Below the pieces are notes generated by a model that saw only the letters and a program-made list of their open reading frames with translations, ran no database searches and had not been told where the DNA came from. 64,000 nucleotides of DNA, taken from an uncultured Kordiimonas sp. (GTDB taxonomy: Bacteria > Pseudomonadota > Alphaproteobacteria > Sphingomonadales > Kordiimonadaceae). Positions 26,325 to 30,653 of this stretch are shown piece by piece. Position 1 is the stretch's first letter. Each line of letters starts with the position of its first letter. A program made the position numbers and the translations under genes. Where the stretch lies: positions 558,001 to 622,000 of the forward strand of contig CANNEK010000002.1 of the NCBI GenBank assembly GCA_947503625.1. Direction: 5' to 3'.

Positions 26325-26380
26325 CTGGCGGCCCCGTCCAGTGAATGCTTTGGCAACAAGTAAGTGGTGGAGGGGCTGCA

Positions 26381-27607
26381 ATGAATATGAAGATGCTAAC
26401 TGGTGTACTTTTGGTAACCGGATCAATCACCGTTGCCGCGCAGGACAGCAGGCCCGAAGGGTTGACGGGCGCTACCTGGCAGTTTGGGCCCCTCAATCGT
26501 TGGGCCTACACCCATATTCGTGAAATACTGCCTACCAAAGATATTCCGAACGACTATCGAACCGTAAGGCCCCTACCGGGTCTGGAATCTGCCGTGACCG
26601 ATTTGAACATCAGCCTTGATGGTACTGCAATGAGGTTGTCGGAGGCGATGAAGCACCATTATATGGATGGTGTCATGGTCATGAAAGATGGTCATGTGGT
26701 TGCGGAGATCTATGACGGCACCCTGACGGCAGAGCGCCCGCACCTCCTGTGGTCGGTTACCAAAACAATTACGGGACTTACGGCTGCTTCAGTAGCGGCT
26801 GATGGTCTGATTGATCTGGAGAGGTCGGTCAGCAGCTATGTGCCCGAGCTTTCTGATACAGGGTGGGGCACTAACAGTCTTCGCACCCTTCTTGACATGC
26901 GAGATACCTCTGACTGGAACGAAGATTATGCCGCACCCGACAGCACGGTTCGCAGGCAGGATTGCGCAGACGGTCTTTTGACCGGAGAGATGTGCCTGGA
27001 TACCAGAGTTGTTGGCAATTACCGGTTTTTGCCGGGTGTTGGCCGCGACGACAGCAGAGAAGATACTTTTGTCTATAAATCCGGAACCACAGATGTAATT
27101 GCGTGGGTGCTTGAAGCAGCGACGGGCAAACGATTTGCTGATTTGGTTGCAGAACGGATATGGAAACCAATGGGGTCGGAAAGAAGCGCCGCTATTACAG
27201 TTGATGTCTCTGGTTTCACGCTTGCAAGTGGTGGCATGACAGCAACGCTGAGGGACATGGCGCGTGTCGGGCAATTAATGCTTGATAGGGGCCGCGTTGG
27301 TGAGCAACAGGTGATACCGGAGAAATGGCTCGACGATATTTTCAATCGGCCGGGTGATCCGACCTGGAGTTTCCCCAAGCCAGACAACAGGTCGCCATAC
27401 TATCGGTCTTTTGTTTGGGGCGTTGGCGATGGCAACGGCACAGTGCAGGCGCGTGGTGTCCATGGCCAGGTTATTGATGTATCGCCTTCAAGCAATACAG
27501 TTGTTGTCGTGTTCTCAAGCTGGCCCGATGCAGATGGAGGCGCATCTGGCGTTGGTTCCAGTGAAACCCAGTCTGTCATTCAGGCGATCAAAGACGCGCT
27601 TAAATAG
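26381..27607 (+). CDS. Secreted serine hydrolase of the beta-lactamase (class C / esterase) family
   Basis: A 408-aa protein with a signal peptide (MNMKMLTGVLLVTGSITVAA) and a beta-lactamase fold. The S-x-x-K nucleophile motif is in WSVTKTITG, and a Y-x-S-type second motif is in VYKSGTTDVIAW. A possible third H-x-G-type motif is HGQVIDVS. Such proteins include esterases, D-aminopeptidases and nylon-oligomer hydrolases (6-aminohexanoate-dimer type), and true resistance is unlikely. GGAGGGG lies just before the ATG. It is likely in one operon with the upstream hydrolase. Confidence 0.85.
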   Translation: MNMKMLTGVLLVTGSITVAAQDSRPEGLTGATWQFGPLNRWAYTHIREILPTKDIPNDYRTVRPLPGLESAVTDLNISLDGTAMRLSEAMKHHYMDGVMVMKDGHVVAEIYDGTLTAERPHLLWSVTKTITGLTAASVAADGLIDLERSVSSYVPELSDTGWGTNSLRTLLDMRDTSDWNEDYAAPDSTVRRQDCADGLLTGEMCLDTRVVGNYRFLPGVGRDDSREDTFVYKSGTTDVIAWVLEAATGKRFADLVAERIWKPMGSERSAAITVDVSGFTLASGGMTATLRDMARVGQLMLDRGRVGEQQVIPEKWLDDIFNRPGDPTWSFPKPDNRSPYYRSFVWGVGDGNGTVQARGVHGQVIDVSPSSNTVVVVFSSWPDADGGASGVGSSETQSVIQAIKDALK

Positions 27608-27612
27608 AATGT

Positions 27613-28227
27613 TCAGACAAGGTAAGCTTCCAATAGCACCGCCAGTTCTTCGATAATGTCCCGGGCTTTTTGTTCTTCTTCTTCTTCCAGAGACAAATCA
27701 ATAAGAACCGATGTTACAGTTACAGCGGTTTTGGCAGCGGCCAGCTTTCGGTCTGGTTTGAAGCTGATGCCAGCGTTGGACATGGTGGCTTGAATGAGTC
27801 CCGACAGGTTACTGTTGATCCCCGGGGTAACCTCCCAGAGGGAATAGTGTTTGTTTGCCCATCTGGTAAGTGCCCGAAAACTTGGGTGCGCGCGTGCAAG
27901 CCTTGTAAACTCGTTCAACAGTAACCGGATGGCACCCGGTAGCGGCGTGTGCTTGGGAATTGTCGCATGTACTGCGTTCAATTCGCTTTCTACCTCGTTG
28001 TATGCCGTGCGGTATAGCTCGTTTAGAATATCGGTGCGGTCTTTGAAGTATCTGTAGACGGACCCGACAGGAATGTTCGCGCGTGCAGCAACAGATGTCG
28101 TAGTGACGGCGTCAATCTGGTTTGCTACCACAAAACTGTGGGCCACCTCCAGAATAAGAGCGCGCCGAGCCAGAGCACGTGCCTGGGTCGGTTCTGGTTT
28201 GGTACCGGGTTGATTGGCTGCAGTCAT
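27613..28227 (-). CDS. TetR-family transcriptional regulator (controls beta-helix/cytochrome pair)
   Basis: A 204-aa regulator with an N-terminal helix-turn-helix (VTTTSVAARANIPVGSVYRYFKD, in two parts) and a helical ligand-binding domain. The C terminus has an acidic run, LEEEEEQKARD. It is divergent from the beta-helix gene. A perfect 21-bp palindrome starts 27 bases upstream of its ATG, the expected place for an autoregulatory operator that also faces the beta-helix/diheme-cytochrome pair. The effector is unknown. Confidence 0.9.
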   Translation of the reverse strand: MTAANQPGTKPEPTQARALARRALILEVAHSFVVANQIDAVTTTSVAARANIPVGSVYRYFKDRTDILNELYRTAYNEVESELNAVHATIPKHTPLPGAIRLLLNEFTRLARAHPSFRALTRWANKHYSLWEVTPGINSNLSGLIQATMSNAGISFKPDRKLAAAKTAVTVTSVLIDLSLEEEEEQKARDIIEELAVLLEAYLV

Positions 28228-28253
28228 TTGGCAAGCCTAGTGGTCTTCAAAAG

Positions 28254-28274
28254 AAAATGAAACAGTTTCATTTT
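28254..28274. promoter_or_regulatory. Palindromic operator of the TetR regulator
   Basis: Two perfect 10-base arms, AAAATGAAAC and GTTTCATTTT, flank a single central A. The site is between the divergent TetR gene and the beta-helix gene. Its size and symmetry are typical of TetR-family operators. Confidence 0.82.
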
Positions 28275-28346
28275 AATTGACTTTTGGGCGACAGCCATTG
28301 CACTCTTTCCATTCTTTTAGCCATGGAATGACAATAGGGGAGTCTG

Positions 28347-29588
28347 ATGCGCACATACAGAGTAACTTTATCATGGTTTGTGGCTTCATGTCTTTTGTCA
28401 CTGACAGCATGGGCACAAGCAGTTGTTGACGTATCCGCTGAAGGTGACTTTCAGGAGAATTTGCAGGAAGCCCTCATACTGGCGGAGCCCGGCAGCACTA
28501 TCAGGTTGCCTGCAGGCAGGTTTGAGCTTCAAACTGCCCTGTCACTTGATGTACCCCGCGTGAAACTCGTTGGTGCGGGCATGAACGAAACAGTTTTGTC
28601 GTTTGCTGGTCAGGTCGCCGGGTCTGAAGGCTTGTTGGTCACATCAGACGGCGTTTGGCTGGAAGGTTTCGCTGTTGAAGATACCCCGGGGGACGGTATC
28701 AAGGCAAAAGGTGTTGATCAGATATCTTTTAAAGATATCCGTGTTGAGTGGATGCGCGGCCCCAATGCAGAAAATGGTGCCTATGGTCTGTACCCGGTGG
28801 AAAGCACGAATGTTCTGATTGATGGCGCTTTGGTAAAAGGAGCATCAGATGCGGGCATATACGTTGGTCAGAGCCAACATATCATTGTCCGCAACAGCCG
28901 TGCAGAATACAATGTGGCGGGTATCGAGATTGAAAACAGTTACTATGCTGATGTCTTTGACAATGTCGCCACACACAATACTGGCGGTATCCTGGTTTTC
29001 GACCTCCCAAACCTGCCTCAAATGGGGGGGCACAGTGTTCGGGTGTTTAACAATCGTTCCATCAACAATGACGTCGCAAATTTTGCACCGGAAGGCAACA
29101 TTGTTGCGACGGTTCCAAAGGGTACGGGCCTCTTGATCATGGCCAACCACGATATCGAAGTATTTGGAAACGAGTTTGCGGACAACGAGTCTGTCAATGT
29201 GTTGTTGGCGGCGTACCCCAGGGAATATAATGATGCGAATTATAATCCCTTGCCGCGGGGTATTTTCGTGCATGGCAATACATATGGCCGAGCAGGATGG
29301 CAGCCGGACAAGGCCGTTGCCGAACTGATTGCACCGGCAACAGACCTGCCCATTCCCGATATTGTCTGGGATGGTGCTGTAGACGGCATCTGGGCGGCAT
29401 TTTTTGGCCCGGACGAGCAAGACCGCATCGTGATCAACGAGGCTGATGACACGACGTTTGCCAACCTGCAGTTTGTAAAAGACATGATTTTGCCTTGGGG
29501 CGCCTCGGTATTGACGGACATCAGCGATCACGCCGGATCCCGCGAACCTCTCAAAGCAGTATCTTTGCCGCAAGAGGGTGCGAATTAG
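28347..29588 (+). CDS. Secreted parallel beta-helix repeat protein (TIGR03805-type)
   Basis: A 413-aa protein with a signal peptide (cleavage near WAQA at about 25), followed by right-handed parallel beta-helix turns rich in Asn, Gly, Val and Ile. Examples are VKLVGAGMNETVLSF, NVLIDGALVKGASDAGIYV and IIVRNSRAEYNVAGIEIEN. Asparagine-ladder features are visible in the later turns. The family is a pectate-lyase-like fold without an assigned function, and members regularly pair with a TIGR03806 protein, as here. GGGGAG lies before the ATG. The cytochrome gene starts immediately after the stop. Confidence 0.88.
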   Translation: MRTYRVTLSWFVASCLLSLTAWAQAVVDVSAEGDFQENLQEALILAEPGSTIRLPAGRFELQTALSLDVPRVKLVGAGMNETVLSFAGQVAGSEGLLVTSDGVWLEGFAVEDTPGDGIKAKGVDQISFKDIRVEWMRGPNAENGAYGLYPVESTNVLIDGALVKGASDAGIYVGQSQHIIVRNSRAEYNVAGIEIENSYYADVFDNVATHNTGGILVFDLPNLPQMGGHSVRVFNNRSINNDVANFAPEGNIVATVPKGTGLLIMANHDIEVFGNEFADNESVNVLLAAYPREYNDANYNPLPRGIFVHGNTYGRAGWQPDKAVAELIAPATDLPIPDIVWDGAVDGIWAAFFGPDEQDRIVINEADDTTFANLQFVKDMILPWGASVLTDISDHAGSREPLKAVSLPQEGAN

Positions 29589-30653
29589 GTGTGGGCTTTT
29601 CTGTTAAACTGTATCCGCTATACTACGGTTATACTTCTGGGGACTGCTACTATCGCCAGCGCACAGCCGGTCAATGATGCGGCGTTAATGGGTAGCCGGC
29701 CTGCGAAAATGCTCTCCGAATACGGGCTGTTTGCGGACGCGCCAAACCAGTTGCCAAATGACCGCGTCATTGCCTACGATCTTCAGGTACCTCTCTTTAC
29801 CGATTATGCGGAAAAGTATCGTTTTGCCTACGTACCGGATGGGCAGCCGGCCACTTACGATGTTACAGAGGTTTTCACTTTTCCTGTGGGGTCGGTTCTG
29901 GTGAAAACCTTTGCGTATCCCGCTGACTTTCAACTTCCGGATGAAAACATCCGTTTGATAGAAACTCGTCTTCTTATTCATCAGGAAGCCGGCTGGAACG
30001 CCTGGACTTATATCTGGAATGATGAGCAAACCGATGCGGTTCTCAAGGTTGCAGGGAAGGTGTTGCCGGTTGATTTTGTTGATGCCTCCGGACAGGCGCA
30101 ATCAATCACCTATGTGGTTCCCAACAAAAACCAGTGCAAGGGTTGCCACACGTTTGACAAGGCGGTCACGCCAATTGGTCCCAAAGCACGAAACCTTAAC
30201 AAAACAATCAGGTATCAAGGCGAAGAAAAAGAACAGATGGTTCACTGGTCTGATACCGGGCTTCTGGTGGGTGCACCTGACCTCAATGAAGTTCCTCGTG
30301 TTCCCGCAAGCGATGATATGACCGCCCCGCTGGAAGACAGAGCGAGAGCTTATCTGGATATTAACTGCGCGCATTGCCATCGTAGGGAAGGGCCGGGTTC
30401 CACGTCAGGTCTTTTTCTGACCTACCATGAACCCAACCCAACAGCCTGGGGGTATGAAAAACGCCCTGTGGCCGCTGGCAGGGGGTCTGGTGGTCTTGAT
30501 TATGATATTCAGCCGGGTGATGCCGCCGCCTCAATCATTCATTTCCGGATGGCGTCAACCGACCCCGGTATAATGATGCCTGAAGTTGGCCGGTCCAGTG
30601 TGCATACCGAAGGCCTTGCCTTGATCAGGGACTGGATTAACCAGATGAAATAA
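29589..30653 (+). CDS. Secreted diheme c-type cytochrome (SO2930 / HNE_0200, TIGR03806 family)
   Basis: A 354-aa exported protein (signal peptide ending IASA at about 25) with two heme-binding CXXCH motifs: CKGCH at 183-187 and CAHCH at 260-264. PGIMMPEVGRS near the C terminus could supply an axial methionine. The N-terminal 170 residues form a separate beta-rich domain. The family is recognised as the partner of the beta-helix protein family, with unknown function. Two covalent hemes suggest periplasmic electron transfer or peroxidase-like chemistry. The start is GTG, directly abutting the upstream stop, which implies coupled translation. Confidence 0.88.
   Translation: MWAFLLNCIRYTTVILLGTATIASAQPVNDAALMGSRPAKMLSEYGLFADAPNQLPNDRVIAYDLQVPLFTDYAEKYRFAYVPDGQPATYDVTEVFTFPVGSVLVKTFAYPADFQLPDENIRLIETRLLIHQEAGWNAWTYIWNDEQTDAVLKVAGKVLPVDFVDASGQAQSITYVVPNKNQCKGCHTFDKAVTPIGPKARNLNKTIRYQGEEKEQMVHWSDTGLLVGAPDLNEVPRVPASDDMTAPLEDRARAYLDINCAHCHRREGPGSTSGLFLTYHEPNPTAWGYEKRPVAAGRGSGGLDYDIQPGDAAASIIHFRMASTDPGIMMPEVGRSSVHTEGLALIRDWINQMK

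Follow-up and report, generated by a model that had tools for sequence, protein, structure and literature searches.

Two known protein families, TIGR03805 (beta-helix proteins) and TIGR03806 (diheme c-type cytochromes of the SO2930 family), provide the closest described counterparts of a gene pair that we analyzed in a 64,000-nucleotide stretch of DNA from an uncultured Kordiimonas sp. (contig CANNEK010000002.1, assembly GCA_947503625.1; the whole stretch is herein referred to as the window). In Shewanella oneidensis, SO_2930 and SO_2931 appear in a table of outer-membrane or extracellular c-type cytochromes (PMC4837345), a passage in another paper describes SO2931 as a diheme outer-membrane lipoprotein (PMC5357785), and single passages on one or both of these proteins in other papers concern cytochrome location or transcript change. 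A TIGR03805-annotated hypothetical protein, Bcam1339, is placed in an exopolysaccharide cluster of Burkholderia cenocepacia (PMC3584217), and a TIGR03805 domain is mentioned in a surface protein of Streptococcus salivarius (PMC5847202). Searching the open-licence PMC literature by family names, locus tags and related words gave no function for the pair, in agreement with a preliminary description of this DNA, which had called the pair functionally unassigned. A further and more distant counterpart is the P460/c'-beta superfamily. According to the relevant parts of a review, P460 hemes turn hydroxylamine (NH2OH) into nitric oxide (NO) and nitrous oxide (N2O), and the features important in P460 are a cross-link lysine, a distal carboxylate and a capping residue; the distal carboxylate, Glu96 in Nitrosomonas europaea P460, is present in NH2OH-oxidising P460s, and the words "diheme" and "fusion" are absent from the review's main text (PMC11928373).

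We hypothesize that the pair constitutes an exported, two-protein enzyme module in which an open heme is furnished with a built-in electron outlet, a proposal to which we would give about an even chance. It is built on the finding that the first heme domain of the cytochrome is a likely but remote relative of P460 and c'-beta proteins; this likeness is new here, both protein families being already known. The features concerned are:

28347–29588, plus strand: beta-helix gene, TIGR03805, 413 amino acids (NCBIfam 395.6 bits, cut-off 141.5)
29589–30653, plus strand: cytochrome gene, TIGR03806 (SO2930 family, diheme c-type), 354 amino acids (NCBIfam 418 bits, cut-off 313.3)
29757–30188, plus strand: predicted P460/c'-beta-like heme-1 domain, cytochrome residues 57–200 (hhalign probability 93.1, E 3.2e-7)
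29904–29906, plus strand: codon of Lys106, aligned with the P460 cross-link lysine column (invariant in 82/82 sequences)
30135–30149, plus strand: CXXCH at residue 183, heme 1 (sequence motif)
30321–30650, plus strand: class I cytochrome c-like domain with heme 2 and Met330 (PF00034 25.3 bits, cut-off 21.3; domain start set by eye)
30366–30380, plus strand: CXXCH at residue 260, heme 2 (sequence motif)

Both proteins score above the curated NCBIfam cut-offs and are thus members of TIGR03805 and TIGR03806. The GTG start of the cytochrome gene is the base right after the TAG stop of the beta-helix open reading frame, such that the preliminary description was right in reporting a secreted beta-helix protein and, with zero gap, an exported cytochrome with CXXCH at 183 and 260, export having been judged by eye from the signal peptides. 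In its core the locus does not differ from other members of the two families, for which pairing is the rule; what distinguishes it is a divergent TetR gene with an operator, a combination that, with the window TetR as the sole query, was seen at no loci other than alphaproteobacterial ones.

The pairing of the two families is near obligate. Among 289 alphaproteobacterial genomes drawn evenly, the source genome included, TIGR03806 scores above its cut-off at 13 loci in 12 genomes and TIGR03805 at 15 loci in 14 genomes, and a helix gene lies immediately upstream on the same strand at all 13 of the cytochrome loci, which upholds the earlier statement that the families occur together. The two genomes that have a helix and no cytochrome above cut-off show much lower helix scores (196 and 198 bits); matches below cut-off add the cytochrome in 2 more genomes and the helix in 7 more. 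Of 59 relatives (counting the source genome), 29 carry the cytochrome above cut-off. The best 80 of at least 592 candidate loci retained from a scan of a named-genome collection belong to Alphaproteobacteria, Bacteroidota and one SAR86 bacterium, with single records from a planctomycete, Neomarinimicrobiota and Hydrogenedentota. The helix is present within 72 of these 80 loci, and the two genes overlap or are separated by at most 20 base pairs (bp) in 64 of the 72, with an overlap of exactly 4 bp in 22 (the gene starts counted are longest-frame starts and some overlaps are thus too large); at one locus (L061) the two genes lie 1220 bp apart. The pair is retained in three alphaproteobacterial genomes of ~1.4 Mb (G106, G230 and G325; completeness 95–97 percent). 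A two-protein module is less easily reconciled with the eight scanned loci that have no helix (L066, L072, L077, L081, L093, L102, L112 and L115). Among three plasmid loci, the helix is found in one (L034) and is missing from two (L035 and L036); on the Pseudoalteromonas plasmid represented by L035, a gene of 2157 codons annotated as a starch-binding protein (L035:9601-16074) includes a TIGR03806-like cytochrome region and is followed by a DUF1552 gene.

The AlphaFold2 model of the cytochrome, built from an 82-sequence alignment, has a mean predicted local distance difference test score (pLDDT) of 94.5 and a predicted template modelling score (pTM) of 0.89. A match to Pfam cytochrome P460 in the cytochrome of a second copy of the pair in the source genome (expectation value, E, of 2.6e-4, below the gathering score) led to a profile–profile test of the P460 likeness. 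Aligned by hhalign with a cytochrome P460 profile, residues 57–200 reach the probability of 93.1 listed above with a score of 47.2, whereas 60 column shuffles in which CXXCH was kept in place yield at most 68.1 (score at most 34.7), the C-terminal domain 5.9, four pieces of the beta-helix protein at most 0.3 and the reversed profile 0.3; the whole cytochrome gives 89.7. The P460 profile comprised 21 sequences out of 30 loci from PF16694 searches of the source genome and its class, after exclusion of four loci whose CXXCH frame was not clean and of five proteins bearing additional hemes. In Foldseek searches of the PDB (50 matches listed of 382 at E ≤ 10), Methylococcus P460 occupies ranks 1 and 2, Nitrosomonas P460 rank 6, and c'-beta proteins ranks 11, 15, 22, 27 and 37. 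Four cytochrome residues, Arg78, Lys106, Glu125 and Arg127, are invariant in the 82 family sequences, and Lys106 falls on the P460 cross-link lysine column in hhalign, in each of the three MAFFT alignments that combined 41 of the 82 family sequences with the 21 of P460, and in 236 of the 410 alignments that compare the 82 family sequences one by one with five lysine-bearing P460s.

Several results weigh against this assignment. No Foldseek match reaches E ≤ 0.001, those to P460 having E of 0.035 or worse; ranks 3–5 are unrelated proteins, and the template modelling scores (TM-scores) to P460 are 0.16 by query and 0.35 by target. PF16694 matches only 3 of 12 family members (best E 2.6e-4), the best member scoring 21.8 and hence falling below the gathering cut-off of 27, and the other 9, the window protein included, have no match to it at E ≤ 1. 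Lys106 is not paired with the P460 lysine in 174 of the 410 pairwise alignments, in 100 of which it is unaligned. All three joint alignments bring the P460 distal carboxylate column to Leu128 and not to invariant Glu125, which sits three residues earlier, and a role of Glu125 as the distal carboxylate is hence not borne out. A whole-protein match to L128, a locus encoding P460 joined to cytochrome c (with L129 as the second row), failed to yield an alignment with the family as a whole. Finally, P460 was absent from the results of PDB sequence-profile searches with two alignments (A1 and A4), in which NapB was the best match (E 0.007 with A1 and 2.7 with A4). As NapB is a diheme electron carrier, this last result favors the main rival explanation, namely that the cytochrome is a plain electron carrier, which would do no more than take electrons from periplasmic dehydrogenases and hand them on, either to the respiratory chain or to cytochromes of the outer membrane, with both hemes six-coordinate and the helix as its docking partner; we regard this as somewhat unlikely.

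Because the hhalign probability and the Foldseek ranks are positive and the Pfam cut-off and PDB sequence searches are negative, we consider heme domain 1 to be a likely but remote P460/c'-beta relative and no member of Pfam PF16694. It resembles the superfamily in its remote profile match, in the order of its elements, with a CXXCH closing the beta-domain, and in the lysine at the cross-link position, and departs from it in that the window cytochrome has a second, class I heme domain, misses the Pfam cut-off and leaves the carboxylate unmatched.

The conserved residues of the family suggest what this domain might do. Met330, present in all 82 sequences, is the only methionine conserved in at least 90 percent of them, and the only histidines conserved at that level are His187, His262 and His264, all within CXXCH motifs. 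Since the sole conserved methionine fits heme 2 and the conserved histidines all lie in CXXCH, heme 1 lacks an evident sixth ligand and is likely to be open and reactive. The same conservation pattern argues against the six-coordinate hemes of a plain electron carrier, as does the resemblance of heme domain 1 to P460/c'-beta, which suggests that heme 1 is reactive and not simply a conductor of electrons. In favor of the carrier, in addition to NapB, are the listing of SO_2930 and SO_2931 among outer-membrane or extracellular cytochromes (PMC4837345), that of SO2931 as a diheme outer-membrane lipoprotein (PMC5357785) and two of the helix-less loci, L077 and L093, which adjoin a gene of one cluster, assigned by Pfam to the GSDH family for L077. 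With heme 1 in a domain resembling those of P460 and c'-beta proteins, and with an invariant lysine where the P460 cross-link would be, we conclude that the cytochrome probably does more than carry electrons, which changes the view taken in the preliminary description.

In the open-heme module that we favor, the cytochrome would combine a P460/c'-beta-type domain (heme 1, bound at Cys183-Cys186-His187, with no evident sixth ligand) with a class I cytochrome c domain. Lys106 would stand at the place of the P460 cross-link, and heme 2 would be bound by His264 and Met330. Heme 1 may then bind and oxidise or reduce a small molecule, for which the superfamily makes a nitrogen or oxygen species the best guess, and the electrons would leave via heme 2 to the respiratory chain. 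The beta-helix partner might dock the cytochrome or present the substrate, and a dedicated TetR would repress the pair, as well as the second copy in the source genome, via TGAAA-N3-TTTCA until a ligand arrives.

A bolder version of this proposal, which we think quite unlikely, is that the first heme of TIGR03806 proteins is a genuine P460 heme, cross-linked to lysine and connected to a cytochrome c within the same protein, which usually has a helix partner. If true, this would make them a widespread, unrecognised P460 enzyme outside nitrifiers and methanotrophs, with hosts among the Alphaproteobacteria (including genomes of ~1.4 Mb), a SAR86 bacterium, the Bacteroidota, and a single planctomycete and other records, and hydroxylamine or NO chemistry might be going on unnoticed through them in marine and soil habitats. 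It would also extend to common heterotrophs a cofactor chemistry that is best known in nitrifiers and methanotrophs. The P460-like domain and its invariant lysine turn a widespread, almost always paired family with no assigned function into a simple spectroscopic question.

Other combinations of P460 with further hemes were encountered during the searches. L128 and L129 both encode a P460 domain and then a second CXXCH, a Pfam cytochrome c domain being confirmed in L128 only. L128 is similar to the window cytochrome in domain order and in length (348 against 354 amino acids), yet it has no alignable common profile with TIGR03806, and its lysine-column residue is, by eye, a methionine. Three loci (L141, L145 and L146) contain open frames of ~1020–1070 amino acids with six CXXCH motifs in the visible part and a partial match to the P460 profile. 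The source genome additionally encodes an ordinary, single-domain cytochrome P460 (L117:1468-2028, minus strand, contig C1) with a lysine at the cross-link column and a glutamate at the carboxylate column.

The beta-helix partner was modelled together with the cytochrome as a single read-through chain. This pseudo-complex has a pTM of 0.73 and a pLDDT of 81.9, and its pTM exceeds a rough guess of ~0.5 for unplaced domains; because values fall below 50 in the heme-2 region, the model gives a weak hint of helix–cytochrome docking. Residues that are invariant in 74 of 74 helix sequences (Lys119, Trp135, Tyr146, Tyr149, Asp168, Gln175, Glu194, Glu196 and several asparagines) point to a specific function. 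In Foldseek searches, the helix part of the model resembles the mannuronan C5-epimerase AlgE4 (TM-score by target up to 0.60), the polysaccharide lyase RbmB and other polysaccharide enzymes. Such matches would suit a carbohydrate-active module, with the helix as an epimerase- or lyase-like enzyme or a binder of uronate polymers and the cytochrome oxidising the polymer or its products, and so would the position of Bcam1339 in an exopolysaccharide cluster, some Bacteroidota neighbors (a 3-keto-disaccharide hydrolase at L106, and Gfo/Idh-like and sulfatase-like genes by eye) and a perfect operator-like site 11 bp before an Acyl_transf_3 gene of the source genome. We nevertheless judge this account improbable. 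Right-handed beta-helices look alike whatever their function, and AlgE4 and RbmB share this overall fold with the window helix without giving a PDB sequence-profile match to it at E ≤ 1, the best such matches being phage appendage proteins and a PL6 alginate lyase (E 5e-4 to 1.4e-3). Of the Tyr, His, Asp and Lys that form the catalytic set of AlgE-type epimerases and lyases, the Asp and His of AlgE4 would presumably correspond to Tyr149 and Val151 of the helix. No conserved carbohydrate-related neighbor was seen either, as described below.

The helix also matches profiles of NosD, a protein of copper delivery to nitrous oxide reductase (TIGR04247, 34.8 bits; PF05048, 38.1 bits), and a metal-related module might accordingly be envisaged in which the helix acts as NosD does and the cytochrome matures or protects a metalloenzyme. 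However, the TIGR04247 score is far under that family's cut-off of 300, PF05048 is above its cut-off yet scores below PF13229 (Beta_helix) on the same stretch, and no nos genes were noticed near the pair, albeit without a systematic scan. We consider a metal role highly improbable and have set it aside as a weak, generic beta-helix similarity.

The gene neighborhood is consistent with a self-contained module. Of the 72 pairs in the scanned loci, 35 lack any further gene on their strand within 120 bp, and the remaining chains hold unlike genes; up to five genes to either side are mostly housekeeping genes that differ by lineage, such as dapB (NCBIfam) and dnaK-, dnaJ-, glmM-, enolase- and CTP synthase-like genes (by eye), with TonB-dependent receptor-like genes scattered over 8 of 85 loci and SDR-like genes over 12 of 85. 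The calls for neighboring genes come from a simple script based on codon usage; most of the names were assigned by eye, and few of the genes were scanned against families. Given these unlike neighbors and lone pairs, the module appears self-contained and its neighbors do not name a substrate; a pathway shared among the neighbors, most of them so named, was set aside as none was common to them. Nitrogen-cycle genes were not noticed beside the pair among neighbors mostly not scanned against families, which counts against the open-heme module. The survey of linked genes in other genomes that the preliminary description had suggested thus brought out no shared pathway, and no conserved neighbor indicates a polysaccharide pathway, such that its polysaccharide or alkane target has gained no support so far. 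Of the redox module acting on a polymer that it had put forward, an exported, near-always paired heme module with a TetR-linked operator has stood, and polysaccharide action is so far unsupported.

The second TIGR03805/TIGR03806 pair of the source genome lies on another contig (L003, C3:834000-853000) and adjoins a TonB-dependent receptor gene, a TetR gene with the same domains as that of the window, an MMPL and LolA-like fusion and a DUF1302 gene. Both of its proteins have a lipobox-like cysteine; a crude lipobox test of paired lipidation of the two partners (Fisher p 0.03) gave evident false positives and was not used.

The regulatory features upstream of the window pair, both of which the preliminary description had reported correctly, are:

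27613–28227, minus strand: divergent TetR-family regulator (PF00440 TetR_N 32.0 bits and PF17918 TetR_C_15 34.8 bits, both above cut-off)
28254–28274, no strand: candidate operator, perfect 21-bp palindrome with core TGAAA-N3-TTTCA (pattern conserved at pair promoters with a divergent TetR)

With up to 3 mismatches allowed, the palindrome, AAAATGAAACAGTTTCATTTT, matches the window at its own position alone (0.01 matches expected from shuffles), and it is more than chance because it is conserved at related promoters. Of 100 pair promoters, 33 have a homologous divergent TetR (29 of 94 when identical ones are counted once). The core occurs in 28 of the 33 promoters with a divergent TetR versus 1 of the 67 without (3 of which, L062, L103 and L114, have less than 250 bp of upstream sequence), and in 4 of 3803 control windows; with identical upstream sequences removed, the counts are 25 of 29 versus 1 of 65. 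In the four distinct TetR promoters that lack the core, the best site agrees with the palindrome at 17 or 18 of the 21 positions. Of the 17 genus genomes with the pair, 16 have the exact longer motif at the pair promoter, and the seventeenth (G004) has neither the motif nor a TetR match. With both a TetR_N domain and a conserved palindrome at the gene's own promoter, the palindrome looks like a dedicated TetR operator, and by analogy with the family the regulator would be expected to repress the pair and sense a ligand.

Apart from the second pair, the 31 genomes searched for the motif contain 10 sites elsewhere, versus 3 for a reversed control pattern. Sites with at most 1 mismatch in the source genome (4.07 Mb in 11 contigs) are those of the window pair, of the second pair (which departs from the longer pattern at 1 position) and a perfect third site at L174:1501-1519, which ends 11 bp before the Acyl_transf_3 gene mentioned above, a possible additional member of the regulon; 5 sites have 2 mismatches, versus 1 for the control pattern. 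A promoter scan predicted no sigma-70 site at 28150–28420, and a terminator scan predicted none downstream of the pair. In one relative (G005), an extra motif site is located at the start of a GNAT gene. The TetR gene of the window is adjoined by a gene of the Pfam Beta-lactamase family of serine hydrolases (26345–27607); in 4 of 85 loci, the window counted, a relative of this gene is no more than five genes away from the pair.

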